A DNA stretch of 62,493 nt from a virus. The stretch is taken from the IMG/VR virus record IMGVR_UViG_3300044617_002031, positions 1 to 62,493 of that record; one strand, written 5' to 3'. The position numbers were made by a program, and so were the translations under genes. This document shows positions 1,303-62,493 of this stretch, one piece after another. Within the stretch, counting starts at the first letter, position 1. The number at the start of each line of letters is the position of its first letter. The notes below the pieces were generated by a model that ran no database searches, was not told the DNA's origin, and saw only the letters and a list, made by a program, of their open reading frames with translations.

Positions 1303-1331
1303 TTGACTCATGGGGTTAATTGGGGTAAGAT
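1303..1331 (+). promoter_or_regulatory. sigma70-type promoter for the gene at 1359
   Basis: TTGACT at 1303-1308, a 17-base spacer and TAAGAT at 1326-1331. The start codon follows 27 bases after the -10 box. The same spacing recurs at the neighbouring small genes, but here GTACTA takes the place of their GTTGAG. Confidence 0.65.
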
Positions 1332-1358
1332 AATCTTGTACTATTTGATAACGAAAAA

Positions 1359-1718
1359 ATGAGTGGTATTTTTTCAGATTATTTAACTGTCAAACCTGGT
1401 GACATTCTGTGGTTAGTACCCGAATCCCGCGATTCAACTGATTCTTGTGCAGGAATAAATAAATCAGAATTTGCGGTTTTAATAAAATCAGTCCACTTTT
1501 CTCCGTGCAAAAAAAAAGCTGAGAACATTACGCTAAATTTTGACGAAACCGAGATCGAAACACCAGGCGATGATGACGATATTTTTATTAGCAGTGTTTC
1601 TATATACGAATACCAAAGCACTTTAAGGGTTAATTCTTCGACGAGAATAGAGTCCCGTAACGAACCAACGTATTACGGGGATTTAAAATATTCTTCTGTT
1701 GTTGTAGAAAAAAGATAG
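1359..1718 (+). CDS. small protein of unknown function
   Basis: 119 residues, not recognised. The start at 1359 is supported by a well-spaced promoter just upstream; no Shine-Dalgarno sequence is visible. The N-terminal third contains KPGDILWLVPES, which resembles a small beta-domain, and there is an acidic patch (PGDDDDIF) near residue 70. No signal peptide or membrane segment. It is monocistronic, with a terminator at 1745-1779, and is the first of six similarly organised small genes. It is not clearly related to the paralogous trio downstream. Function unknown; early or accessory expression is inferred from the host-type promoter. Confidence 0.6.
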   Translation: MSGIFSDYLTVKPGDILWLVPESRDSTDSCAGINKSEFAVLIKSVHFSPCKKKAENITLNFDETEIETPGDDDDIFISSVSIYEYQSTLRVNSSTRIESRNEPTYYGDLKYSSVVVEKR

Positions 1719-1744: not shown

Positions 1745-1779
1745 AAAAGCATCTATTATTTCTAGTAGGTGCTTTTTTA
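1745..1779 (+). terminator. intrinsic terminator
   Basis: AAAAGCATCTA pairs imperfectly with TAGTAGGTGCTTTT, followed by a T run. A near-identical hairpin follows the gene at 1833 (2285-2319). Confidence 0.75.
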
Positions 1780-1820
1780 TTTACATTAATTCAAAAATAA
1801 GGTAAAATACCTGTGTTGAG
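1780..1820 (+). promoter_or_regulatory. promoter/leader module with GTTGAG, copy 1
   Basis: TTTACA at 1780-1785, 17-base spacer, TAAAAT at 1803-1808 inside the inverted repeat GGTAAAATACC, exactly 6 bases, then GTTGAG at 1815-1820 and ATG 12 bases later. The G of GTTGAG is at the expected +1. No Shine-Dalgarno sequence. Confidence 0.75.
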
Positions 1821-1832
1821 TAAAGTAAAACT

Positions 1833-2249
1833 ATGGCAAAATTGACACTCGAATTAACCAAGACAACATTCTATCCCGACATGGGAACATACATTGGCGG
1901 AGATAAGTTAACTTCTACGACGATTCTTATTTTCTTTGACATCGAGAAAGAAGAATTTCATGAAGTATTGGAGATGCAATTCTATCGTATAAGCTCCAAA
2001 CGGGTAGCTTGTGCAGTGTGGGTACGGTTCGGAGAATATGATCTTCGAGGAGAAGGTTTTTGTGAATCAATCCAACATTCTAACAGGCTAAGAATAGTTC
2101 AAAAAGCATTCGACGAAATGGGTATAAAAACCTCTTTTGATTTATCGAGTTCATCTTTGTCTAATCTTGGATTTGAGGAGACTGTTGCAAACGCGATCGC
2201 GGACACATTCAAACTCAATCTCAAACATTGTAAAGTAATTACAACTTAG
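1833..2249 (+). CDS. small phage protein, paralogue family A, member 1
   Basis: 138 residues, family not recognised. It is homologous to the proteins at 2385 and 3228. Shared features are an N-terminal beta-rich segment with a Thr-rich strand (LTSTTILIFF), a central V-x-FGEYDLRGEG motif (GEYNL and GEISL in the paralogues), a helix ending in VQKAFDEMGIKTS, a DLSS-type linker, and a C-terminal helix IADTFKLNL. All three are soluble and lack cysteine clusters or obvious catalytic motifs. The gene has its own promoter with the GTTGAG leader and its own terminator. The duplication suggests an interaction or anti-host role, but nothing in the sequence proves that. Confidence 0.7.
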   Translation: MAKLTLELTKTTFYPDMGTYIGGDKLTSTTILIFFDIEKEEFHEVLEMQFYRISSKRVACAVWVRFGEYDLRGEGFCESIQHSNRLRIVQKAFDEMGIKTSFDLSSSSLSNLGFEETVANAIADTFKLNLKHCKVITT

Positions 2250-2284
2250 TTTGATTAATGCGATCGCGCGATCGCAATCAACCC

Positions 2285-2319
2285 AAAAGCATCTACTAGA
2301 AATAATAGGTGCTTTTTTA
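2285..2319 (+). terminator. intrinsic terminator
   Basis: Hairpin AAAAGCATCTA / TAATAGGTGCTTTT followed by a T run, nearly the same sequence as at 1745-1779. Confidence 0.75.
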
Positions 2320-2328
2320 TTTTAAACA

Positions 2329-2369
2329 TTGACTAATAGATGTTGATAAGTTAAAATAGTTTCGTTGAG
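2329..2369 (+). promoter_or_regulatory. promoter/leader module with GTTGAG, copy 2
   Basis: TTGACT at 2329-2334, 17-base spacer, TAAAAT at 2352-2357, 6 bases, GTTGAG at 2364-2369, ATG 15 bases later at 2385. The leader is A-rich and has no Shine-Dalgarno sequence. Confidence 0.75.
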
Positions 2370-2384
2370 CTAATTAAAAAAAAC

Positions 2385-2810
2385 ATGAGTTATTTCACAG
2401 CAACACTCAAGCAAACAAATGTCCACATGGATAAAAGAAAAATCATAAAAGGTTCTTTCTTTTCCGAGACAACTTTGGTATATCTTGATGAATTTGGGAA
2501 ATTTCATAACCCAATCTCAATTAAATTAAGTAAAACAAAAAATGGAATTTATTGTGTCTTAAAAGTTGTGTATGGAGAATATAATCTTCTGTCTGGAGGC
2601 TGTCGCTCACTGGAATGCTCTTTAGCAAAACAAGTTGCGATACAAGAAGCACTGGATAATGCAAAGATAGAAATATCTCCTGATTTATCCTCTGGCTTGC
2701 CGGGAATCAATTTTGGTTCTGAATGCGAGGAAAAGATTGCGATCGCGATCGCTCACGCTTTGGGATTAAACTCTGAACGATGGACATTCGTTAACTCCAG
2801 TTGGGAATAA
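2385..2810 (+). CDS. small phage protein, paralogue family A, member 2
   Basis: 141 residues, paralogue of the proteins at 1833 and 3228. It has the TTLVYLD strand, the VVYGEYNLLSGG core, the helix VAIQEALDNAKIEISPDLSS and the C-terminal helix KIAIAIAHALGLN. Of the three it is closest to the 3228 protein in the GG and A-x-QxAL parts. No known domain, membrane segment or signal peptide. Monocistronic, with the GTTGAG promoter upstream and a strong terminator downstream. The HIP1-like sequence GCGATCGCGATCGC codes for its IAIAIA stretch. Confidence 0.7.
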   Translation: MSYFTATLKQTNVHMDKRKIIKGSFFSETTLVYLDEFGKFHNPISIKLSKTKNGIYCVLKVVYGEYNLLSGGCRSLECSLAKQVAIQEALDNAKIEISPDLSSGLPGINFGSECEEKIAIAIAHALGLNSERWTFVNSSWE

Positions 2811-2828
2811 ATTCTACTTTTAACCATG

Positions 2829-2859
2829 AAGTCACTAAATAATTTTAGTGACTTTTTTG
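2829..2859 (+). terminator. intrinsic terminator
   Basis: GTCACTAAA / TTTAGTGAC stem followed by TTTTTTG. The terminator at 3132-3163 is the same except for a compensated base pair (GCCACTAAA / TTTAGTGGC). Confidence 0.85.
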
Positions 2860-2900
2860 TTTACATTAATCCAAAAATACGGTAAAATACCTATGTTGAG
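2860..2900 (+). promoter_or_regulatory. promoter/leader module with GTTGAG, copy 3
   Basis: TTTACA at 2860-2865, 17-base spacer, TAAAAT at 2883-2888 within GGTAAAATACC, 6 bases, GTTGAG at 2895-2900, ATG 13 bases on. About 40 bases are nearly identical to copy 1. A weak AGGAA precedes the ATG. Confidence 0.75.
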
Positions 2901-2913
2901 TCAATAGGAAACT

Positions 2914-3114
2914 ATGGAAAAATTAATTGAGAGCATTCGCACTTTTGATTCTGATACATTTTCTGCATCTAGTCAGAATTGGACAGAGGAGCAGGTAAAA
3001 GCGATCGCGGACAAACTAATAGAGACTTGGATTGTCAATAAAATTGACGGTCACGATCTATCGGAAGTCAGTGGAGAGTTAGGATTCCTTAATTCCGACG
3101 ACAATGATGAATAG
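2914..3114 (+). CDS. small acidic helical protein of unknown function
   Basis: 66 residues: MEKLIESIRTFDSDTF, then two probable helices (NWTEEQVKAIADKLIETWIV and SEVSGELGFL) and an acidic tail NSDDNDE. No recognised family. The promoter is nearly a copy of that at the 1833 gene, and a strong terminator follows, so it is an autonomous unit. Two other genes with the same promoter class (33484 and 51323) also encode small proteins with Asp-rich tracts, which may be a functional link. Confidence 0.65.
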   Translation: MEKLIESIRTFDSDTFSASSQNWTEEQVKAIADKLIETWIVNKIDGHDLSEVSGELGFLNSDDNDE

Positions 3115-3131
3115 TCTCTAAATATCTTAAT

Positions 3132-3163
3132 GAAGCCACTAAATAATTTTAGTGGCTTTTTTG
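3132..3163 (+). terminator. intrinsic terminator
   Basis: GCCACTAAA / TTTTAGTGGC stem with TTTTTTG. It is homologous to the terminator at 2829-2859 with a compensatory change, which supports the pairing. Confidence 0.85.
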
Positions 3164-3172
3164 TTTCAAATC

Positions 3173-3213
3173 TTGCTATTTTCTCTGAAAAGGTTTACAA
3201 TAAACAGGTTGAG
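3173..3213 (+). promoter_or_regulatory. promoter/leader module with GTTGAG, copy 4
   Basis: TTGCTA at 3173-3178, 17-base spacer, TACAAT at 3196-3201 inside GTTTACAATAAAC, 6 bases, GTTGAG at 3208-3213, ATG 14 bases on. No Shine-Dalgarno sequence. Confidence 0.7.
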
Positions 3214-3227
3214 TTTCACTTAGAATT

Positions 3228-3644
3228 ATGATACTACAGTTTACGCAGACTTATCACCAACAAACAGGTTTTGACAAATTCTGCAAAGAAAAAGATTTTG
3301 CGAGAGCTACAATTCTTGTAAATTACAGCAATGGAAAAATTTCGTATCCCGCTAAAGTAAAAGGATATATAACCAACAAAATGTTCTATTGTTTGGTTTC
3401 TGTTTCGGCGGCTTCTGAATTACATGGAGAAATTTCTTTGATATCGGGAGGTAAGTGTGAGGTTTCTGAAGAAAACTTTAAGCATTGGGCAATTCAAGAT
3501 GCCCTAACCAAAGCAGGAATTACATTATCTTGTTCGTTGCCAGATAGCAACATCGACATGAGTGATATTGAGCGAGATGTATTGAAAGCGATCGCGCGAT
3601 CGCTAAACCTAGAGAACTACGATATTCTCACCGTTCTCCCCTAA
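3228..3644 (+). CDS. small phage protein, paralogue family A, member 3
   Basis: 138 residues. Third copy of the family at 1833 and 2385: RATILVNY strand, ELHGEISLISGG core, helix WAIQDALTKAGITLS, SLPDSNID linker and C-terminal IARSLNLENYDILTVLP. The N-terminal 25 residues are not conserved with the paralogues. No known domain. It has its own promoter with the GTTGAG leader and its own terminator (3654-3680). The family is clear from the shared motif order; the function is unknown. Confidence 0.7.
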   Translation: MILQFTQTYHQQTGFDKFCKEKDFARATILVNYSNGKISYPAKVKGYITNKMFYCLVSVSAASELHGEISLISGGKCEVSEENFKHWAIQDALTKAGITLSCSLPDSNIDMSDIERDVLKAIARSLNLENYDILTVLP

Positions 3645-3653
3645 ATTAATTTA

Positions 3654-3680
3654 GCGCACCTTTCATGGGTGCGTTTTTTG
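3654..3680 (+). terminator. intrinsic terminator
   Basis: GCGCACC / GGGTGCG stem followed by TTTTTTG, directly after the gene at 3228. Confidence 0.85.
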
Positions 3681-14905: not shown

Positions 14906-15817
14906 TTATACTCCATGATTGATTCGAGAAATTTCTTTTAACATTTCCTGTATAGTTTTTACCGAGTCATTCCACGCTGCGGTGATTAGTTGTTGTTTTT
15001 GGAGTTGATTTGGAGTTAGAGTTGTTTTTAATTCATCGGCTAACGATAAATACATTTTATCAAACTCTCGAATAACATCATCTAGCTCAGCTTTAGACAG
15101 TTTGTTTAAATCAGAAGGCAACTGCTGAACGAGATGTCCAAAACTATCGGAAAACATTTTGTTGTATTTCAGCGCAGGAACCGCAACTTCCTCAACAACC
15201 CCACTGCTATATCGAGCATAAACAACAGTTTTTGCTAAATTTGCTGATATAGCTGCGATCGCAATTTCCGACAACAAATAAGTTAACAATGCCCAAAACA
15301 GAAATTCTGCAACCTCACCCGGATGGGATTTAACGTAATCCGTTGCAACCTTAGCGGTATTAGCAATATTTCCAACTGGATCTTTAATAAAATCAGTAAA
15401 CAGGTTAACCATGTCATCAGTGAACTTTCCGCTATCTGGGCCAAATACCTTACGGATCATATCCCCTAACGCGGTCTTTTTGGGTTCAACCTGTAACCAA
15501 AATTGATTGTTGAGTTTCTTCTTTTCTGTTGGGGTTAAATTATCAACCCAGGATTGAATTGTCGCAAAAGCATTAGTAGTAATTGATTGTCGAGGAGTTG
15601 ATTCAGTAGGAGTTTCCGCCCCTTTTTTAGCAAACTTCCCCGTCGCATCCCTCATCACCTTTTTGGCTTCCGACAACCAATCTGCTTCGTACTCTTTTAC
15701 CCCTGATTCCGCAAGAATTTGAATCCTCAATATTTGGGATTGCGCTTGCATGATTCGACATAAATAGGGAAGGTTTGTAGGCATATTAAAATTACTAACG
15801 CCAGGTTTCCCTGGCAT
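14906..15817 (-). CDS. short member of the capsid-packed effector family
   Basis: 303 residues from ATG 15817. An in-frame ATG at 15784 aligns better with the family N-terminus and would remove 11 residues. The targeting-like segment is intact: LCRIMQAQSQ, QILAE, SGVKEYEADWL, RDATGKFAKKG. The rest is short: a helical stretch, one clear hydrophobic segment (FLFWALLTYLLSEIAIAAIS, about 168-187), then a helical tail (KAELDDVIREFDKMYLSL). It lacks the MDKxE signature and any effector domain. It may be a chaperone or pore component, or a degenerate member. A small inverted repeat (CCAGGGAAACCTGG) overlaps the first possible start. Confidence 0.65.
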   Translation of the reverse strand: MPGKPGVSNFNMPTNLPYLCRIMQAQSQILRIQILAESGVKEYEADWLSEAKKVMRDATGKFAKKGAETPTESTPRQSITTNAFATIQSWVDNLTPTEKKKLNNQFWLQVEPKKTALGDMIRKVFGPDSGKFTDDMVNLFTDFIKDPVGNIANTAKVATDYVKSHPGEVAEFLFWALLTYLLSEIAIAAISANLAKTVVYARYSSGVVEEVAVPALKYNKMFSDSFGHLVQQLPSDLNKLSKAELDDVIREFDKMYLSLADELKTTLTPNQLQKQQLITAAWNDSVKTIQEMLKEISRINHGV

Positions 15818-22149: not shown

Positions 22150-22452
22150 TTATTTCTTTATAAGTATTAACTTATATTTGCCAACGGTAGGTGGTACAGA
22201 AAAAATGATTGTCAACTGTTCTTTCTCTGGGTAAAAGTCCGCTTCCACTTGTTCACCTGATTCGTTATCAATAACCCACCAATTTATAATCTCAAATCCG
22301 GTTTTAACTACAAAAGTCTTGCTTGAACCGTTGCCTAGATTTAATCTTACGATCTCAGATTCGCGCTCACAGTGCAAATCAAATAAATGATTTGCACAAT
22401 TTTGATGTAAAGGCAAGTTAGATATCGGAGCAACAGATACAGATATTGCCAT
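22150..22452 (-). CDS. stand-alone tail-fibre cap domain
   Basis: 100 residues. The C-terminal 65 residues (GNGSSKTFVVKTGFEIINWW, then QLTIIFSVPPTVGKYKLILIKK) match the last domain of the fibres at 25389 (GNGVDTTYTVTHNL ... APTSNAYKLVMVAV) and 26310 (GDGIETSFLFQHNL ... APPALNSIAVSIL). It is therefore a free version of the module that ends those fibres. Directly downstream of the 22454 fibre, which lacks such an end, so it may cap that fibre in trans or act as a fibre chaperone. Confidence 0.6.
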   Translation of the reverse strand: MAISVSVAPISNLPLHQNCANHLFDLHCERESEIVRLNLGNGSSKTFVVKTGFEIINWWVIDNESGEQVEADFYPEKEQLTIIFSVPPTVGKYKLILIKK

Positions 22453-33404: not shown

Positions 33405-33455
33405 AAAATAAACGGGACACAACACCCGTAGGTATTGCGTCCCGTTTTAGGAATA
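33405..33455 (-). terminator. hairpin in the leader of the 33393 gene
   Basis: AAAACGGGAC and GTCCCGTTT pair on the minus strand around a loop of about 20 bases; T-rich sequence and the ATG at 33393 follow. It also serves as terminator of the 33484 gene. Confidence 0.75.
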
Positions 33456-33483: not shown

Positions 33484-33735
33484 TTAATCATCGCCATCTC
33501 CATCGTCATCATCTTCTTCTTTGGTGAAGTCACTTAATTTTAAACCGTTTAGACAATGATCAACTTCATTAATGGCGATAATTAAACAAACTTTTTGTGA
33601 ATCTTCACAAGTATCACCTTTATATGGAAGTGTACTTGTCATGGCCAGCATTTTATCTACCAATACCACCATTTGTTTTTTGTATTTTTCCATTTGTCTT
33701 GTGTATTTTTCTTGCTGTCTTTTTGTAAGTTTCAT
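33484..33735 (-). CDS. small acidic-tail protein of the GTTGAG regulon
   Basis: 83 residues. Basic helical start (KLTKRQQEKYTRQMEKYKKQ), then VVLVDKMLAMTSTL, a middle with two Cys (KGDTCEDSQKVCLIIAINEV) and an acidic end EEDDDDGDGDD. The charge split resembles DNA-mimic or nucleic-acid-interacting small phage proteins, which is inference. The promoter belongs to the same class as at 1833, and the 51323 protein has a similar Asp tract and the same promoter. Confidence 0.6.
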   Translation of the reverse strand: MKLTKRQQEKYTRQMEKYKKQMVVLVDKMLAMTSTLPYKGDTCEDSQKVCLIIAINEVDHCLNGLKLSDFTKEEDDDDGDGDD

Positions 33736-33750
33736 TTTTGTTTTTAATTA

Positions 33751-33791
33751 CTCAACATTGATATTTAACCACTTTTAAACAATAAAGTCAA
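33751..33791 (-). promoter_or_regulatory. promoter/leader module with GTTGAG, copy 5
   Basis: On the minus strand TTGACT (33791-33786), 17 bases, TTAAAT (33768-33763), 6 bases, GTTGAG (33756-33751), then 15 bases to ATG. Same geometry as the modules at 1780-3213. Confidence 0.75.
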
Positions 33792-51272: not shown

Positions 51273-51278
51273 AAAAAG

Positions 51279-51311
51279 ACCCGCTAAATTATAGCGGGTC
51301 TGTCTTTTCGA
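51279..51311. terminator. bidirectional terminator between lysin and poly-Asp genes
   Basis: GACCCGCTA and TAGCGGGTC pair around five bases, with an A run on the left and T-rich DNA on the right, between convergent genes. Confidence 0.8.
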
Positions 51312-51322
51312 TCTCTTTTTAT

Positions 51323-51628
51323 TTACTCATTTTCTTCAGCAAAATTTTCTTCGACAATATCGACCATATAGTCAATATCACCATTAAGTTCGTTTAGCGA
51401 ACAACAAATATCATACGCCAAACGAAACGTTCTGGAAAAATGTTTTCGGAGATCGTCATCATCATCGTCATCATCATCGTCATCATCATCATCATCATTC
51501 AACCCTGAAAATACTATGCAGTCTTCAATACTCTCTTGAATTTTTCGTACCTGGGAAATAATATCAGGTATACTTTTCTGTAGTTTTAGAATTTCAGAAA
51601 TGTCTTCTTGATAGACTTTTTTTGTCAT
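51323..51628 (-). CDS. poly-Asp protein of the GTTGAG regulon
   Basis: 101 residues. Helical start (ISEILKLQKSIPDIISQVRK), SIEDCIVFSGLN, an uninterrupted run of 15 Asp, then basic KHFSRTF and a helical acidic end (DYMVDIVEENFAEENE). The Asp run is coded by a GAT/GAC microsatellite at about 51454-51500. Promoter of the same class as at 1833; relation to the 33484 protein is by composition and promoter only. A DNA-mimic or cation-binding role is speculative. Confidence 0.6.
   Translation of the reverse strand: MTKKVYQEDISEILKLQKSIPDIISQVRKIQESIEDCIVFSGLNDDDDDDDDDDDDDDDLRKHFSRTFRLAYDICCSLNELNGDIDYMVDIVEENFAEENE
51454..51500 (-). repeat. GAT/GAC trinucleotide microsatellite
   Basis: About 15 consecutive Asp codons, mostly GAT with a few GAC. 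It is likely to vary in length between isolates by slippage without frameshift. Confidence 0.85.
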
Positions 51629-51642
51629 TTGATTTGTTTTAA

Positions 51643-51683
51643 CTCAACTATAGAATTTTACTATTAATAACATTAAAAGTCAA
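51643..51683 (-). promoter_or_regulatory. promoter/leader module with GTTGAG, copy 6
   Basis: Minus strand TTGACT (51683-51678), 17 bases, TAAAAT (51660-51655), 6 bases, GTTGAG (51648-51643), 14 bases to ATG at 51628. Matches the module geometry exactly. Confidence 0.75.
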
Positions 51684-53806: not shown

Positions 53807-56800
53807 TTATCTCATGCGTTCCACAAACTCCCGCATAATTTGACGGATCTCCATTTTCACTTGAGGCGATCGCAATTTATCAATAAAATCTCTCGCCAAA
53901 TCATCTCCACTATCACCATTAACGATAATATCCCCAAAGCTCAGATTAATATTAATTTCCTGTTCCCCCGCAGATTCAGATTGAGTGGGAGGGAAGAAAG
54001 GAATCGGAGCAAAGGCTGGTGATGTCACAATCTGAGGCGTTGGCATCATTCCTGCTCTGGCTGCATTAATTGAATGGAGTAGGGGAAGGTTTGCTTTAGT
54101 TGAGGAGGCATTTATTACATATTCTCCGTGTGAGAGTTTGGCATGAATGCGATCGCCTGTTCCCGTACCCGGCCCTTTAACTAGACCCCCAGTTGCATAA
54201 CCTGGGGGTTTTTCTGTTTTAGGTTGTCCTCCAAAGAAACTACCAACAAAAGGAATAGATGAAATCGAGTTAACAACAGAAGAAATTACCCACCAAATTC
54301 CTTCAAATATTTTCTTGATAACAAAAGCAACTCCAATAATTGCAGCACAAACACCTGAGATTAAGAGAATTATGGGAAGAACTGGAGCTAATGAGATAGC
54401 AACACCAACAACGGCACTTCCGATCATTGTTAGTACCGATGCAACCCCTGTAATCAAAAGGGGTGTAATAAGCATAACCCCCGAAACAATCCCACCAAAA
54501 ATTACACCAATAGAACCAACCAACCCAGCTATTGTTGCAAAGGCAGAAACAATCCCTGCCAAAACAACACCAAAATTCAGAACAGCAAAAATCCCGCCGA
54601 CAGTTGCACCAATGATTAAAATTGATTTTACGAGTTCCCAGACAAAAGGTAAAATCACCTTAATAATATCAACAGTAATAACCAACGATTTAACAAAAAT
54701 ATCCCAGATAACTTTAACGATAGGGGAAAATATCTGCCAAACCGCTTCAAAAATTTCTATAACTGAACTGATGTTACTCAAGGTTAAAAAGCCAAGCATG
54801 AAACCAGTTCTAGCCAGTAGTATCGCCGGATTAAATATCGAGATAATATCAACAACTAATTTAACCACCGAGAATATCTGCCAAAAAATAGTACCAACAC
54901 TTTCTACAACCCCAATAAATCCTAAAGCGGTATTTAAAATACCTGAAAATACATCTTGAATAAATGTCCCTATATTAGCTAATGCTTGCATAGGATTAGT
55001 AATGATATCCCAAATACCTTTGCCAATCGAAGAAATCACTTGGGAAATTCCTTCAAATATTTTCTCAACTTCAAAAGCAATTCCATTAACCTCAGCAGGG
55101 ATTGGGGTGTTATCAGTTATTTTTGTAACTTGAGGAGTTGATATCACACTTGCTTTATCTGTATTAATTGCGTCAAGTAAAGGAAGATTGGCTTTAGTTG
55201 AGGAGGCATTAATTACATACTCTCCAGGTGAGAGTTTTGCGTGAATACGATCTCCTGTACTTGTTCCCGATCCTTCTACTAACCCCCCAGTCGCATAACC
55301 TGGGGGTTTTTCTGTTTTAGGTTGTCCTCCAAATAAACCACCAATAATCGGAATATTAGATAGGAAGCCCAGTGGGTTACTGAGAAGGTTAAACAGGGAT
55401 GAAATTGAATAAACCAGAAGATTGACGGGAGCCATGATCCAACCAACAACTGTATTAATTCCCTGACCAATTTTGGAGAACAAATTCCCAATAAACGAAC
55501 CTGCTACCTTTAAACCGTCAACCAAACCTGTAATAGCATTTGAAATCCCTGAGAATACATCCTGAACAAATGTCACTATATCAGAAGTAATGATATACAA
55601 AATCCCCTTAGCAATAGAAGAAATTACCCACCAAATCCCTTCAAAGATTTTCTTGATTACAAAAGCAATTCCTAAAACTACAGCAATCCCCGCAATAATT
55701 GGAGCAAAAGCCACCGCAGCAGAAGCGATCGCACCTCCAATAACAGTTGCTATCCCTCCTAATCCCACAGCTAAAAATGGAACAATAAAAGTAATTCCGG
55801 TAATAATCCCACTAATAATCCCGCCGATAGTACCAATCAGACCTGCTACTGAAGCAGCAGCAGAAACAATCCCCGCCAGTAATGCCCCAAAATTCAGGAC
55901 TGCTACAATCCCGCCGATAGTTGCGCCGATAATTAGAATTGATTTTATGACTTCCCAGGTAAAGGATAAAATCGTTTTAATCACGTTGACAGTAAAAATC
56001 AACGATTTAACTATTAATTGGATTCCCCAGGAAATACTTGTAATTAAGAAGTTAAGGGATTTTACTAGAATCCGAATCGGGAACAGCAAGGCATTGACAA
56101 CTGCCGATAAAACATTAGATAGGCTTAAAACACTATTGTTGACATCAACATTAAACAGTTTCAGGATTGGGTCAAATATTGAAATAACAGTAGAAACCAA
56201 TTCCCCAAAGATAGAAGCGATCGCTCTTACTTCCCTGTCAATCGTAGTAAAAATACTACCAATCGCAGCAAAGAAGCCCCCAAACAAATCCCCAAAGAAT
56301 TTCTTAAATGCCCAACCTACGCCGTAAATTAAATCACGGATTCCTAAGAAGTTGGATTTAAAGGCTAAGTAGAATAATCCGACCGCAGCAATAACCCCTA
56401 AGATTATGGGCAAAAAGGGAAGTATGGGAACAAGTAAGGTTTTATAGGCTTTTAAAGCAGCAGCTTTGAGGATAGTAAAGGTTCCCGCAACGAATGAGTT
56501 AGAAGCCGCGATCGCATTTCCCCAAGCCAACATTCCCGCTTGTAGAGTTGGGAGCAAGGCTTTAATATCTACAAACGCATCAATAAAATCATTTAAGACA
56601 AACAAGGGAGTTGCCAACTGAGGAGCGAAGTTAGACAGCAGGGAACCGATGGAAATTAAACTTCCCCGCAATCCTCCCATCATGTTCTGTTGACCAGGTT
56701 GAACTTGTTGTGCCGATTGAATCTCCTGAAGTAATGCTGATTGTCGTTCAAGGGCTTGAATTTGCTGACGGTCTAATTTTGCTTGTCTTCCCTGAGCATT

Positions 56801-59800
56801 TCCCCTGGAAATATTACCCGCTTCAACTCTTTGATTTAGATTTTGTTGGGCTAAGGCAATCTCATTCAGTCTTGCTTGCTGTTTATCAAGTTGACTCAAG
56901 TGACGTGGAGAGACTAAATCCGATTGTTTTAGGCTTTCTATTAAAGTGGATTGTTCCTGTAATATTTGAGTCCGAGCGCGATCTAATTTCACCGTAGCTC
57001 GATTAGCAGCCCGACTAAATGGTTCAGATGAATCCGTTTTGCGACGTTGATTTATTTCATTTTGGAGACGGGCTACTTTACTAAGTTTTTCAGTAAGTTG
57101 ACTGTATTGCGAGATTTGATTAGCTAACGACAATTGCGGTGAGGCTGTCATCGCAGATTGGATTTGTTGACCCTGTTGTCTAGTAAAAGCCGTGAAGCCA
57201 CTTACTCGACCCTCAATCATATCCAACATCTCAAACCATTTCTTACGAATCATGTAAGTAGGGCCAGGAGGATCATTAGATAAGTGTTGTTCTTCTTTTT
57301 TTCCTTCGACTTTAGTTTTTCCAGTAAACCTTTCTAAACGGCTTGTAATCCCATCAAACATCCCTCTCCATTTACTTAAAATACCTTCAGTAACAGAACT
57401 TATTTTTTCAGATACCCAATCAAATGCCCCACCCATCAATAATCGAATTTCTTCTCCCGCCGATCTTGTTGCCTCAACAACAACCTTCCAGGCTTCTGAC
57501 GGTACAGATTTGATTACATCTCCTAATTTTTCAACCGTCTGGATTGGGTGAGCGATCGCATCTAATAAATCAGCAAAAACCGTAATAGCATTTTTAACAC
57601 CTCCAACAGCTAAATTAAGCGAATCAGCAAATATCGCACCTAATCCTTGACCTATCTTTTCCGTAAGAGTTATTCCACTAACAAATTCATCCACAGATGA
57701 AAGAATAGGGCGAAATACATCTAAAATCGCAGAAAAGGCTTGAGGAATATTATCTTTGGCAGACAAGAATATCTCTTTAAAACTTTTCGATATTCTCTCC
57801 AATGGTTCGTTAAACTCAGAGAAAGTTTGATTTATTTTTTCTAACTTAGTAGCGAATCCTTCTAGGAATCCAAAACTAAAGTCAAAGGATATTTTTGTTG
57901 AAACCGTAACCAAACTCTGTATTGCTTCTTTTGCAAGATCTATAATATCCAAAAATGGCTTCAAGCCTGGGACGGCATCCCTAATAGAATTTAACACCGA
58001 CAAAAATACTTGATCTAATTGTTTAAATGCAGAAACCAGATTCTCTCCAATAACAACAAATAAACTTCTCCAAATTGGAATTTGTTCGGGGATACTAAGC
58101 GACATGATCCCCATCGCATAATTCAAGGTTCCAATTACATCATTAAACAATTTCATTGGATTCAATAACTTCGGAAGTGTCTCGGCGATTAAATTAAAAA
58201 CAGAGACTATTCCTTGCCCTAACCCCTCAAGGATTTTAATTGGATTTACCAAATCAAAGATATTATCTTTAATTTCTTTGAAATTTCCAAAAAACTTATC
58301 GACATTCTCTTTCCCGACCAAGGCAGAGATTAACTGCTTACCAATATCTTTAGCGAAGTCTAGTAATCCCGATAATTTACCTTGGATAAACTCAACCGCT
58401 TTACGCCACGCTTCGGGGATTCTCTCAGTCGGATTATGGTTTAAGGCGTTAATTAATTTCTGAGCAATATCCAGGGCAAAATCAACAATTGGTTTGAGGA
58501 TGGTTTTGAAACTTGTCGTGAATCCTTCCCACGCTTGTTTAATTCGTTTAACCGTTGTCTCATTGGTTTCCAAGAAGGTATTCCAGCGTTGTTTTAAATT
58601 ACTGATAGTAGTAGACAGGTTATCAACAAATTCAATCAACAGAACAATACCATTACCTAAATGCACCAGTAATTGAGTTGAACGCAGGAAGTCAACTAAT
58701 GTATTCCAATGTCTACTGATGAATCCCGTGACCGCACTGAAGGCGTAGGATAAATTTTTCAACCCACCCAGAATATAACTAAACAATTCAGTTGTTCCAA
58801 GCCAAGTCGCAAATCCCTCCCATCGGGTTTCAATTCCTGTTAACACGCCTTGAAAGCGTTCCGAGAAAGCGAATAATTCAGTAAACAATCCTTGTAGCGT
58901 AGGGAGATGGAATCGGGTGGCGAAGTTCTCCCATTTCTCGGATAAGTTAACGACGCGATCGCTAAACCCTTTTAATCCATTCCTGAATGCTTCAAATACA
59001 GGTGCAAGGAATTGTGGCGAAGTCAGAATATAGGATTGAAACTCGCGCCATTTATTCTCGGCAAAATCTAGGGATGTTCCAAACAAACCAAATAATTTGC
59101 TAAAACCTTCCCAGACATGGGTTAAGGTTTTCCAGTTCAAGGTAGATATTTCATTCGCCAGCCAAGTCCAACTGGTTTCAATTTGAATTACCCCGGCTTT
59201 AAACAGCTTGGGAATTGCATTGATAAATTCAAATAACCGATAGAACATCGGTAGCGGGAGGTTAAACGCTAAAACCAACTTCACCCACTGCAATTCCATG
59301 TTGAATAAAAATTCACTGACTTTATCAGCCCCAAGTTTTAACTGATTAAAGAAGGGAGCTAACATTTCGGGGGTACGTCCAAACCAATCGGTAATGGTGC
59401 GGAACTGCGATCGCAACCATCCATAACCATCTAACAATCCTTGCCAAGTTTGTCGCGCAGTCGGCCATTTAGGATTCTCGAAGAATTTAACTAATTGATT
59501 CCATTTACCTTGAACGTTATCAATTAAATTATTGGCTTTAGTTTCTAGGGATGCGGTATCAATATCAAGTTTTAGTTTAGGGGCTTTATCGGTGACTTGA
59601 TTCCAAGTTCCAATTAAATTAGATAACCAGGAAGTAACTTGACCGACTTTTTCCCTGAGTTTGTCAAATGCGATCGCAACATCATCAACATAATTCAGAA
59701 TACTTAAAAAGGAGAAGTTAGACATAAAAGCGTCTACTTTTCCTTTTAATGTTGGTGCTTCTAAAACCGTTGACCAGAACTGATTCCAAAGTTGACCAAT

Positions 59801-62493
59801 GGAAGTAGCTAGAGATTTAAACCCTGACTTGAGAGTATTTCCAATATCTTCGGTAATCTGATTCCATTCTAGTTTCCCTGCATTAACAAAGAATTTTAAC
59901 CAGGCTTTTTCAATGGTTACAACAGTTGACTGGAAGCGTTGTACTAGACTATCTAAAAATTCAAAGAAAGGATATCCGATTGGTAGATCAAATCCCAGTG
60001 CTAATTTTACCCACTGCGCTCCTAGATTTACAATTGCATCTCGTAAACCCTGCGCTCCGTTCGAGAGTGTGTCAAATAAAGGGATTATGGATTGCCCCAA
60101 AGATTTCATCCATCCAGGGAATACCAGTTGGAGTTCTTCATTAATACGATCGCTAAACCCTTTAACAAATTGCGCGATCGCATTAAATCCATCTCGAATC
60201 GGGTTCAGTATCCGACTGAGGATTCCGTCCCCTGTACCTTGGAATAAAGTAGGAATTTTTTCTGCAACCCACTTAAATCCGTTTAACAAAGCGTTGGGAA
60301 TATCTTGGAGGAAACTAAAATCCAATCTGGCAATCTTGCGGAATACCTCAACAATCCAATCCTTAGCTTCCCAAAGCTGTAACTTGAACCAGACCATCAT
60401 CTTCTGCCAAGTGCTAATAACAGAAAGACGTAGGTTATTAAATGCTCGGAAGATATTTTTAACAAAGTCAATCAAAGCTTCAGCAGCCATCCGTCCTGCC
60501 CATTCGGGACTGAGGGCAAAGACTGACCAGAACTCATCAAACCATTGTTTTAAATCTTGAAGCGGTTGTTTTAGGAACGGGAAGATTTGAACTAAAGCAA
60601 TTTTCAATCCCTCTCCAATAGACAGGAATCCTTGCGCGATCGCTTTAAACTCTAATTTGAGTTGTTGACCCAGAACTTGAAACGCATCTTTAATTTCGGC
60701 AATCCCTTGTTTGATCAATTCGCTATCACCAAACAATCCTCTCAGGATTAAACTAAATCCTTTCAGGACTCGTCCGGCAGCCATAAATGTAAAGAATACT
60801 ATTTTCCCTGTGGCAACCAGAATTTGAATAATACCCTTCAGGATTGAACGAATCCCCAGGAAGTTCGCCAGAATTACCGCAGCCCCAAATGCGATCGCAC
60901 CAATTGTAATAATTGCCGGAGCCATGCCAGTGAGAACGGCTGCACCTGCTGCGATCGCGCTTAATCCCATACTATTAAATCCGGCAGTCAATCCTTTCAG
61001 GGCAAAGGCTAAGTTCCCACCAAAGTCTTTAGAAGCCTGAGCTAGTTCCCCAAAGTTCAAAGTTAATAAGGCATTGACTGATCGCTTGGCAAAATCAGCG
61101 ATATCTCCTCCCAGAAGTTGCAGGGCATCGGTAACTTGCGCTGCACCAGGTTCAAATAGTACCCCCAGATTTCCAAATCCTTGAGCTTCTAGGTAATCGT
61201 ATCGATCTTGAATTGAGATTATCCCCGCCTCAATGCTTTGAATAGCTTCGTTTTTAGTTGCTTCTGAGACAAAGGGGGTGATAGCGATCGCGGTTTCAAC
61301 AGTTCCCACTCCCATAGATTGAGCTAGGGAAATTCCGGTTTTAGCAGCACTATCCGCCAAGTCACCCATCCAATCGGTGACTTGATTAATGGTTTTCTTC
61401 CAATATTTACGAATATAGAAAGTAGGCCCTGGAGAACCTTCGGCTAATCCTTTTTGTAATTCATATCCCTGGTCGGGAGCCTGGGCAACTAATTTACCAA
61501 TCCCTTTTGAGACAGTGGAAGATGTAAGACCCCAAGATTTTCGGATAGATTTAAAGTTTTTCTCCCACCAAGATTCCTTGTTATCCCACTCGGTTTCTGC
61601 ATTAGTCATCAAGTCATCGACAACAGGTTTACTCTTGCGATGTTGTTGCCAACGCTGCGCCAATCCGCCAATAGCCTGTTGAGCCGCAGGAATTATTTGA
61701 CTTGCTTTTTGTTGGACGACGGGAATTAATTTACTGGTTTTTTCTTTGATAATCGGGTTAACAACATCGCCAACACTCTTGGGGCGATAAGGAACAATAT
61801 TATTTTTTAAATCTGGAATACTGGGTTCAGTAAGTTTTTGTGGGATTTTGTATGGAACCTTTGTTTTGGCATAATATCCATCAAAATAACTTGTAACTTT
61901 ACCCCATAAATCAGCTACAAAATTAGTTGAATTATCCCACCAACTTTGTTTGGGTTGGGGTTGAGATTGAGGCATGGATTGAATTGGTATTTCTACCAAA
62001 GGCTTGATTTCGTCAGGAATCTTAAATTCATTTAAGATATCGCTAAGTATTTTAGAGGTTTGGTCTATTGATTGAACAACACGGTCAATCTGAGGAGCTA
62101 TTTTTTCAGCTAAACTTTTTTCTTTTTCTGGTAATGCTTTGATTGCTTCTCGAATAATTGGCTGTCCCTGTAAGCCAATACCATAAACTTGATCTGCTGT
62201 TTTACCGGATTTCCCTGCGATTTGCTGTAGGTTTTCATTCGAGAAAGTTCCTTTGCGATCGCGGTATTCTGTGGCTAATTTTTTTTCTAGGTAAGTCTGA
62301 CCTTCTTGTGTTAGCTCCATTTTTCCATACTGCCCCCTGGTAATATATTTAGAAAATTCAGAACGCAAAGCCGAACTTTCAGAAATACTATTATTAGCCA
62401 TTTCATAAATTAACTGATTTTGACGTGCTGATACCTGTTGTGTTACCTTATCTCGAATTGATGCTTCACCCCCCTGGAATAAATCAAGTGTGC
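53807..62493 (-). CDS. tail tape measure protein (N-terminus beyond window)
   Basis: At least 2894 residues. The frame is open to the right edge: the 92 bases before the ATG at 62401 have no stop and read as protein (TLDLFQGGEASIRDKVTQQV...), so that ATG is internal. Long helical middle rich in Trp/Phe, hydrophobic segments, and near the C-terminus two copies of PPGYATGGLV ... LSPGEYVINASSTKANLPLL, the loop typical of tape measure ends. The second half carries a duplicated membrane region (LNFGALLAGIVSAAASVAGL and LNFGVVLAGIVSAFATIAGL; KKIFEGIWWVISS twice). It sets tail length and helps DNA cross the envelope. At about 0.15 nm per residue it predicts a tail longer than 430 nm. Confidence 0.9.
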   Translation of the reverse strand, partial: TLDLFQGGEASIRDKVTQQVSARQNQLIYEMANNSISESSALRSEFSKYITRGQYGKMELTQEGQTYLEKKLATEYRDRKGTFSNENLQQIAGKSGKTADQVYGIGLQGQPIIREAIKALPEKEKSLAEKIAPQIDRVVQSIDQTSKILSDILNEFKIPDEIKPLVEIPIQSMPQSQPQPKQSWWDNSTNFVADLWGKVTSYFDGYYAKTKVPYKIPQKLTEPSIPDLKNNIVPYRPKSVGDVVNPIIKEKTSKLIPVVQQKASQIIPAAQQAIGGLAQRWQQHRKSKPVVDDLMTNAETEWDNKESWWEKNFKSIRKSWGLTSSTVSKGIGKLVAQAPDQGYELQKGLAEGSPGPTFYIRKYWKKTINQVTDWMGDLADSAAKTGISLAQSMGVGTVETAIAITPFVSEATKNEAIQSIEAGIISIQDRYDYLEAQGFGNLGVLFEPGAAQVTDALQLLGGDIADFAKRSVNALLTLNFGELAQASKDFGGNLAFALKGLTAGFNSMGLSAIAAGAAVLTGMAPAIITIGAIAFGAAVILANFLGIRSILKGIIQILVATGKIVFFTFMAAGRVLKGFSLILRGLFGDSELIKQGIAEIKDAFQVLGQQLKLEFKAIAQGFLSIGEGLKIALVQIFPFLKQPLQDLKQWFDEFWSVFALSPEWAGRMAAEALIDFVKNIFRAFNNLRLSVISTWQKMMVWFKLQLWEAKDWIVEVFRKIARLDFSFLQDIPNALLNGFKWVAEKIPTLFQGTGDGILSRILNPIRDGFNAIAQFVKGFSDRINEELQLVFPGWMKSLGQSIIPLFDTLSNGAQGLRDAIVNLGAQWVKLALGFDLPIGYPFFEFLDSLVQRFQSTVVTIEKAWLKFFVNAGKLEWNQITEDIGNTLKSGFKSLATSIGQLWNQFWSTVLEAPTLKGKVDAFMSNFSFLSILNYVDDVAIAFDKLREKVGQVTSWLSNLIGTWNQVTDKAPKLKLDIDTASLETKANNLIDNVQGKWNQLVKFFENPKWPTARQTWQGLLDGYGWLRSQFRTITDWFGRTPEMLAPFFNQLKLGADKVSEFLFNMELQWVKLVLAFNLPLPMFYRLFEFINAIPKLFKAGVIQIETSWTWLANEISTLNWKTLTHVWEGFSKLFGLFGTSLDFAENKWREFQSYILTSPQFLAPVFEAFRNGLKGFSDRVVNLSEKWENFATRFHLPTLQGLFTELFAFSERFQGVLTGIETRWEGFATWLGTTELFSYILGGLKNLSYAFSAVTGFISRHWNTLVDFLRSTQLLVHLGNGIVLLIEFVDNLSTTISNLKQRWNTFLETNETTVKRIKQAWEGFTTSFKTILKPIVDFALDIAQKLINALNHNPTERIPEAWRKAVEFIQGKLSGLLDFAKDIGKQLISALVGKENVDKFFGNFKEIKDNIFDLVNPIKILEGLGQGIVSVFNLIAETLPKLLNPMKLFNDVIGTLNYAMGIMSLSIPEQIPIWRSLFVVIGENLVSAFKQLDQVFLSVLNSIRDAVPGLKPFLDIIDLAKEAIQSLVTVSTKISFDFSFGFLEGFATKLEKINQTFSEFNEPLERISKSFKEIFLSAKDNIPQAFSAILDVFRPILSSVDEFVSGITLTEKIGQGLGAIFADSLNLAVGGVKNAITVFADLLDAIAHPIQTVEKLGDVIKSVPSEAWKVVVEATRSAGEEIRLLMGGAFDWVSEKISSVTEGILSKWRGMFDGITSRLERFTGKTKVEGKKEEQHLSNDPPGPTYMIRKKWFEMLDMIEGRVSGFTAFTRQQGQQIQSAMTASPQLSLANQISQYSQLTEKLSKVARLQNEINQRRKTDSSEPFSRAANRATVKLDRARTQILQEQSTLIESLKQSDLVSPRHLSQLDKQQARLNEIALAQQNLNQRVEAGNISRGNAQGRQAKLDRQQIQALERQSALLQEIQSAQQVQPGQQNMMGGLRGSLISIGSLLSNFAPQLATPLFVLNDFIDAFVDIKALLPTLQAGMLAWGNAIAASNSFVAGTFTILKAAALKAYKTLLVPILPFLPIILGVIAAVGLFYLAFKSNFLGIRDLIYGVGWAFKKFFGDLFGGFFAAIGSIFTTIDREVRAIASIFGELVSTVISIFDPILKLFNVDVNNSVLSLSNVLSAVVNALLFPIRILVKSLNFLITSISWGIQLIVKSLIFTVNVIKTILSFTWEVIKSILIIGATIGGIVAVLNFGALLAGIVSAAASVAGLIGTIGGIISGIITGITFIVPFLAVGLGGIATVIGGAIASAAVAFAPIIAGIAVVLGIAFVIKKIFEGIWWVISSIAKGILYIITSDIVTFVQDVFSGISNAITGLVDGLKVAGSFIGNLFSKIGQGINTVVGWIMAPVNLLVYSISSLFNLLSNPLGFLSNIPIIGGLFGGQPKTEKPPGYATGGLVEGSGTSTGDRIHAKLSPGEYVINASSTKANLPLLDAINTDKASVISTPQVTKITDNTPIPAEVNGIAFEVEKIFEGISQVISSIGKGIWDIITNPMQALANIGTFIQDVFSGILNTALGFIGVVESVGTIFWQIFSVVKLVVDIISIFNPAILLARTGFMLGFLTLSNISSVIEIFEAVWQIFSPIVKVIWDIFVKSLVITVDIIKVILPFVWELVKSILIIGATVGGIFAVLNFGVVLAGIVSAFATIAGLVGSIGVIFGGIVSGVMLITPLLITGVASVLTMIGSAVVGVAISLAPVLPIILLISGVCAAIIGVAFVIKKIFEGIWWVISSVVNSISSIPFVGSFFGGQPKTEKPPGYATGGLVKGPGTGTGDRIHAKLSHGEYVINASSTKANLPLLHSINAARAGMMPTPQIVTSPAFAPIPFFPPTQSESAGEQEININLSFGDIIVNGDSGDDLARDFIDKLRSPQVKMEIRQIMREFVERMR

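Follow-up and report, generated by a model that had tools for sequence, protein, structure and literature searches.

Phage morons are single small genes with their own promoter and terminator that lie between conserved genes and diverge fast. We know of no description of a start hexamer shared across morons. Conserved bases at positions +1 to +6 are a property of promoters read by T7-type phage polymerases. In the case of the Microcystis phage Ma-LMM01, the early genes were reported to be without phage-specific motifs (PMC5780444). In cluster K mycobacteriophages, a short asymmetric element of unknown function (SAS/ESAS), sometimes accompanied by inverted repeats, precedes many unrelated small genes; the SAS is 13 bp long, GGGATAGGAGCCC, and is located immediately 5′ of the start codon (PMC3203893). 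At N25, a host-type promoter of phage T5, the bases after +1 were shown to be able to govern productive initiation (PMC12464699).

Here, we analyzed a virus record of 62,493 bases, referred to as the window, in which the hexamer GTTGAG recurs at the predicted transcription start of small genes. Genes for portal, tail, tape-measure, and endolysin-like proteins are present. Two related records were used for comparison, IMGVR_UViG_3300034109_001404 (G001) and IMGVR_UViG_3300035190_001906 (G002). A search for distant relatives with the portal, the 590-aa, and the cassette proteins gave matches only in these two close IMG/VR records. Among phage records, nothing past a 25%-identical portal was found as a relative of the window virus, and 292 cyanobacterial genomes contained no prophage relative, except for one marginal capsid match. 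The host was therefore inferred from the HIP1 octamer GCGATCGC, whose 76 copies in the window suggest that it is cyanobacterial. A very long ORF of 8,060 aa was observed in G002 (320-24502), and a 2,864-aa ORF of the window (53807-62401) aligns with its C-terminal part; the best database resemblance is a weak one to tape-measure proteins.

The promoters studied here are similar to sigma70/SigA phage early promoters, exemplified by those of Ma-LMM01, in their −35 and −10 elements, the 17-base spacing, and the presumed reading by the host polymerase. They differ in the invariant hexamer at the predicted start, whereas the Ma-LMM01 genome is not enriched in TANNNT-GTTGAG. The nearest descriptive precedent is the SAS, which is likewise a short asymmetric element repeated before many small phage genes. 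However, GTTGAG is phased to the −10 and is located 12-17 bases from the ATG, and direct reading of the GTTGAG leaders met neither the SAS nor a near match directly before the start codons. T5 N25 is a single promoter with an experimental effect, whereas here a conserved natural hexamer, known from sequence, is found at many. T7-type promoters are alike in their conserved +1 to +6 bases, but the GTTGAG promoters are otherwise of the host type, and no phage polymerase was found among the scanned proteins.

A preliminary description of this DNA had placed six such sites in the window, and rereading of the sequence confirmed all of their coordinates. On the plus strand GTTGAG starts at 1815, 2364, 2895, and 3208, and on the minus strand it occupies 33756-33751 and 51648-51643. 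The proposed geometry was also correct: the gap between the −10-like hexamer and GTTGAG is exactly 6 bases and the spacer between the −35-like and −10 hexamers exactly 17 bases at all six sites, and GTTGAG is followed by the ATG after 12, 15, 13, 14, 15, and 14 bases in copies 1-6, respectively. A −10-like hexamer is present in each copy, but that of the 33756 copy is TTAAAT and hence falls outside the TANNNT pattern. Copy 4 has a weak −35, TTGCTA. Copies 1 and 3 cannot be treated as independent because they are near-duplicates (91% over 53 nt). The elements, together with a contrast promoter, are as follows:

1303-1331, plus strand: contrast promoter without GTTGAG, TTGACT-N17-TAAGAT, before ORF 1359
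1780-1808, plus strand: promoter 1, TTTACA-N17-TAAAAT (promoter scan)
1815-1820, plus strand: GTTGAG copy 1, predicted +1 to +6, 100% kept in G001
2329-2357, plus strand: promoter 2, TTGACT-N17-TAAAAT (promoter scan)
2364-2369, plus strand: GTTGAG copy 2 (sequence; comparison with G001)
2860-2888, plus strand: promoter 3, TTTACA-N17-TAAAAT, 91% copy of the promoter 1 region
2895-2900, plus strand: GTTGAG copy 3 (sequence)
3173-3201, plus strand: promoter 4, TTGCTA-N17-TACAAT
3208-3213, plus strand: GTTGAG copy 4 (sequence)
33757-33791, minus strand: promoter 5, TTGACT-N17-TTAAAT and 6-base discriminator
33751-33756, minus strand: GTTGAG copy 5 (sequence)
51649-51683, minus strand: promoter 6, TTGACT-N17-TAAAAT and 6-base discriminator (promoter scan)
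51643-51648, minus strand: GTTGAG copy 6 (sequence)

The motif scan that had been proposed confirmed that the GTTGAG promoter pattern is real and far above chance. TANNNT-N6-GTTGAG was observed 5 times in the window versus 0.46 expected, and none of 100 shuffles reached 5. The hexamer might have been arranged in this way equally often away from genes, but the other 41 GTTGAGs of the window were without such an arrangement. When the region from −26 to −12 of 116 ORFs was examined in the window, G001, and G002, orthologues included, the top 6-mer was GTTGAG (15 observed, 0.41 expected). A blind promoter scan of the three records was also performed, in which consensus −35/−10 pairs located no more than 45 bases from a start codon were collected and GTTGAG was ignored. 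It returned 8 distinct intergenic promoters, with GTTGAG at +1 in 5 of them and GTTGAT in 1. Given the frequency of GTTGAG in the window, the probability of 5 in 8 is near 1e-14, a post hoc value in which 2 of the 5 (promoters 1 and 3) are recent copies. ORFs 1359, 33788, and 35335 of this virus are preceded by promoters that lack GTTGAG; thus, the hexamer is not required for transcription and marks a subset of promoters. Another type of promoter, whose spacer contains G-runs 5′ of the −10 (..ggggt..attgggg), was noticed at window 1303-1380 and at L027 10264-10320 and 11300-11356; such promoters are usually without GTTGAG, and one has GTTGAT.

The dispersed gene set with its promoter and short leader extends to both related records, where the gaps are less fixed than in the preliminary description, at 6-7 bases from the −10 and 12-17 bases to the ATG. 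Eleven distinct sites were collected with GTTGAG itself as the criterion. The five extra sites of the relatives (G001 15800 minus, 22423 plus, 24709 plus, and 26255 plus; G002 44508 plus) have unrelated upstream sequences. Over the eleven sites, the distance from the −10 is 6 bases at nine and 7 at two, and the distance to the start codon ranges from 12 to 17 bases. Because the former spacing is the tighter one, the hexamer appears to be tied to the transcription start. A T follows at +7 in 10 of the 11 sites. All eleven have a −10 close to TATAAT, as in sigma70/SigA promoters (TTAAAT in one), and at eight of them a −35 can be recognised, in each case with a spacer of exactly 17 bases; a clear −35 is missing at G001 15800, G001 22423, and G002 44508. 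Outside the promoter elements and GTTGAG, the median pairwise identity is 44%, against 34% expected from composition, so that most pairs are near background. Comparison of window 33756 with G002 44508 showed that the −10/GTTGAG block survives when the upstream half of the promoter is replaced. The G001 leaders at 15800 and 11832 are identical to each other.

The predicted leaders of the eleven sites are 18-23 nt long and A-rich. The statement that they mostly lack a Shine-Dalgarno sequence holds for five of the six window copies, which have no SD-like tetramer, and not for copy 3, which has AGGA. An AGGAGG-like match 4-12 bases before the ATG is present in 1 of the 6 window leaders versus 19 of 42 for comparison, which is not a significant depletion (p = 0.38). 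Pairing of GTTGAG as a Shine-Dalgarno or extended anti-Shine-Dalgarno element was rejected, since its distance is wrong and the depletion is not significant. Folding beyond that of shuffled sequences was not detected in the window leaders, which have no stable terminal hairpin (z 0.2 to 1.3). The inverted repeat over the −10 noted earlier is perfect in copies 1, 3, and 4, but it is not general (mean stem 3.7 versus 3.3 in shuffled sequences, p = 0.09), and an operator palindrome over the −10 was rejected as a general feature on these values. A search for a phage regulator had been suggested as well; among the proteins covered by the Pfam or PHROG scans, none could be identified, and all three records may be fragments. 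The same scan of these possibly incomplete records revealed no phage RNA polymerase or sigma factor.

The GTTGAG genes are small single-gene units, called cassettes here, most of which end at an intrinsic terminator. Between 1.7 and 3.7 kb, intrinsic terminators bound each gene, and the T-run often runs straight into the next −35. The genes and terminators of the window sites are:

1745-1776, plus strand: terminator-like stem before cassette 1 (sequence)
1833-2249, plus strand: 138-aa ORF, paralogue of 2385 and 3228, no Pfam/PHROG match
2285-2316, plus strand: terminator-like repeat after ORF 1833, related to 1745-1776
2385-2810, plus strand: 141-aa ORF, paralogue, fused to 2914 in G001
2801-2913, plus strand: terminator, promoter, and leader unit, 113 bp, missing in G001
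2828-2855, plus strand: intrinsic terminator-like stem
2914-3114, plus strand: 66-aa acidic ORF
3132-3159, plus strand: intrinsic terminator-like stem
3228-3644, plus strand: 138-aa ORF, paralogue, weak match to PHROG 7028 (a PHROG of unknown function)
3653-3675, plus strand: intrinsic terminator-like stem
33484-33735, minus strand: 83-aa ORF, 35% identical to its positional orthologue in G002
33411-33446, minus strand: GC-rich inverted repeat followed by a T-run after ORF 33484, terminator-like (read by eye)
51323-51628, minus strand: 101-aa acidic ORF, 41% identical to its G002 orthologue
51278-51300, minus strand: GACCCGCTA..TAGCGGGTC and a T-run after ORF 51323, terminator-like (read by eye)

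The products gave no Pfam match and no informative PHROG match. ORFs 1833, 2385, and 3228 are paralogues with about 30% identity, and the others encode short and acidic proteins; a larger GTTGAG gene (590 aa) is located in G001 at 22446 on the plus strand. Without the 2801-2913 unit, the flanking ORFs of G001 form one 201-aa ORF. Between the window and G002, the proteins of the GTTGAG genes are 35% and 41% identical and their neighbours 94%, while the promoter and GTTGAG are kept. Slow cases also occur: for ORFs 1833 and 3228, the identity to G001 is 99-100%. Each single gene has its own promoter and terminator, the terminators at 33.4 and 51.3 kb having been read by eye, and by their sequence features the cassettes are moron-like units with a conserved start region. 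Outside the GTTGAG set, the protein encoded at window 1359-1718 is only 44% identical to its G001 counterpart. The upstream promoter and the downstream terminator of this gene, in contrast, hardly differ between the two records, which looks like an exchange of gene bodies between conserved intergenic blocks. Several terminator stems of G001 are formed by HIP1 octamers; inverted pairs of the octamer were seen as terminator stems between cassettes at L027 10225-10262, 10632-10672, 12180-12214, and 1834-1867.

Beyond this virus, TTGA-N19-TANAAT-N6-GTTGAG was found 13 times in 386 cyanobacterial genomes and its permuted form with GAGTTG 11 times; therefore, the pattern is not a host rule. A host-wide rule was rejected with 10 genomes as well as with 386, the counts being equal to those of the controls. 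A looser promoter pattern gave 54 matches in cyanobacterial genomes versus 57 for its control, and with a looser pattern anchored at the ATG, the excess over the control comes mainly from a single conserved locus of Nostocales. At that locus (L205, L206, and L207), a cyclophilin-type lipoprotein gene carries a conserved block, TAAGATACTCTGGTTGAGTCAGTAACTGGCAATG, with the geometry of the phage sites. This block was seen in roughly 18 of the 386 genomes, and the sequence upstream of its −10 is not conserved among the three loci read.

In the viral collection, TTGAC-N18-TANAAT-N6-GTTGAG gave at least 121 matches versus 35 with a permuted hexamer. Grouping by sequence, stricter than single-linkage, yielded 32 non-coding families for GTTGAG and 7 for the permuted control among the matches listed. 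These come mainly from marine phages, several of them phages of cyanobacteria, and are isolated promoters, some before tRNA genes, structured leaders, or ORFs. The cultured Synechococcus phage S-RSM4 has TTGACA-N17-TAAAAT-N6-GTTGAG-N14-ATG before SRSM4_218. In six cultured marine cyanophages, GTTGAG is present at only 2 of 64 strong non-coding promoters, so a general cyanophage rule was rejected; a rule for T4, lambda, S-PM2, P-SSM2, and Ma-LMM01 was also discarded, as no enrichment was found in those genomes. The low cyanophage count and the lack of excess in the 386 cyanobacterial genomes do not support a general polymerase preference. A preference for GT at +1 in general may account for some of the excess seen in the viral collection. 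The window virus group is unusual in its density of GTTGAG promoters and not unique in their form. A literature search did not turn up GTTGAG or GUUGAG as a word in any paper that it listed.

The preliminary description had offered an operator, a start-site rule, or a translation signal. The start-site rule fits best because the hexamer is locked to the −10 more than to the start codon. With about an even degree of confidence, we read these elements as host-type promoters of small accessory one-gene cassettes in which GTTGAG would be a start-site-coupled element, either as initially transcribed sequence or as a 5′-end tag. The cassettes would be read by the host polymerase from strong SigA/sigma70-like promoters, with the RNA starting at the G of GTTGAG, 6 or sometimes 7 bases past the −10. 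The mRNAs would then begin with 5′-GUUGAG, which an unstructured, A-rich stretch of 12-17 bases would separate from the start codon. The hexamer could be read by the host machinery during or just after initiation, where its effect would be a fixed start site together with efficient escape or a stable 5′ end. A more specific form, in which the virus or an exploited host factor recognises GTTGAG at +1 to +6 as a phage-specific initiation code and so sets a co-regulated promoter class apart on the host polymerase, seems unlikely to us.

It is conceivable but doubtful that all of these genes are switched jointly by a phage regulator that binds +1 to +6 and perhaps the −10 as well. The restriction of GTTGAG to a promoter subset in this virus and its dispersal over both strands agree with such an operator, as do the dyads that copies 1, 3, and 4 have over the −10. 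However, a specific protein site would be expected to be longer than six bases without a palindrome, the dyads are not general, and an operator would not need the exact 6-7-base phasing that every copy shows; the scanned proteins of the three, possibly fragmentary, records included no recognisable regulator. We regard as similarly doubtful that GUUGAG acts in the 5′-UTR, serving SD-less ribosome recruitment or 5′-end protection. Uniformly short, A-rich leaders, mostly without a Shine-Dalgarno sequence, would suit this role, and several families from marine phages have a terminal hairpin whose 5′ strand is GUUGAG. Against it, the ATG distance varies more than the −10 distance, the SD depletion is not significant, and the window leaders have no stable terminal hairpin. 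A translation signal is unsupported because the hexamer does not match a Shine-Dalgarno sequence, the leaders are unstructured, and the same promoter-GTTGAG arrangement precedes tRNA genes elsewhere. GTTGAG is probably not a ribosome-binding element, and its position before tRNA genes, structured RNAs, and ORFs in other phages argues for a role at the level of transcription or the RNA 5′ end.

Several points agree with a spread by duplication: three ORFs are paralogues, promoters 1 and 3 are 91% alike, two G001 leaders are identical, and the window has a 113-bp terminator-promoter unit that G001 lacks. Yet shared descent alone, with GTTGAG as a passive relic of a duplicated terminator-promoter-leader unit, is improbable because the hexamer is conserved amid flanks that are mostly near background; passive relics would have decayed equally. 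Least credible, to a degree that we hardly consider it, is recognition by a phage polymerase or sigma factor at a T7-like start sequence or an N4-like hairpin promoter. The conserved +1 to +6 and the three sites without a clear −35 are the points in its favour, but eight of eleven sites have a host-type −35 at exactly 17 bases, an N4-type stem-loop is not found in every promoter, and neither protein was detected among those scanned. If the hexamer of the favoured start-site-coupled element is functional, selection on the first transcribed bases in phages is as strict as that on the −10 itself, and GTTGAG would be a cheap sequence tag for accessory, fast-evolving, possibly anti-defence genes. 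The set also turns the marking of one promoter class by phages that lack a polymerase or sigma factor of their own into a testable question.

Two further groups of GTTGAG-related starts were observed in other cyanophages. Transcripts predicted from TTGACA-N17-TATAAT-N6-GTTGAG of marine cyanophages share a conserved leader of ~67 nt, GUUGA-GAAA-UCAAC-UGCGG...GGCGGCGAUAGGAAC, mostly located directly before tRNA genes (L217, L226, L244, L246, L253, L269, L278, L287, L290, L317, and S-SKS1 NC_020851 at 49330, minus strand). Its second helix shows both-sided changes in 4 pairs, and a scan of three loci gave no Rfam match at gathering threshold there; it looks like an uncatalogued structured RNA. 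In S-SCSM1 (NC_070962, 59604, minus strand), a GTTGAG promoter is located between gp48 and the late sigma factor gene and reads antisense to gp48, with the sigma gene behind it. Starts related to it, TAGAAT...GTCAGGGTTGA, were seen repeatedly in further cyanophages (L266, L216, L280, and L283) and possibly represent an antisense RNA family.
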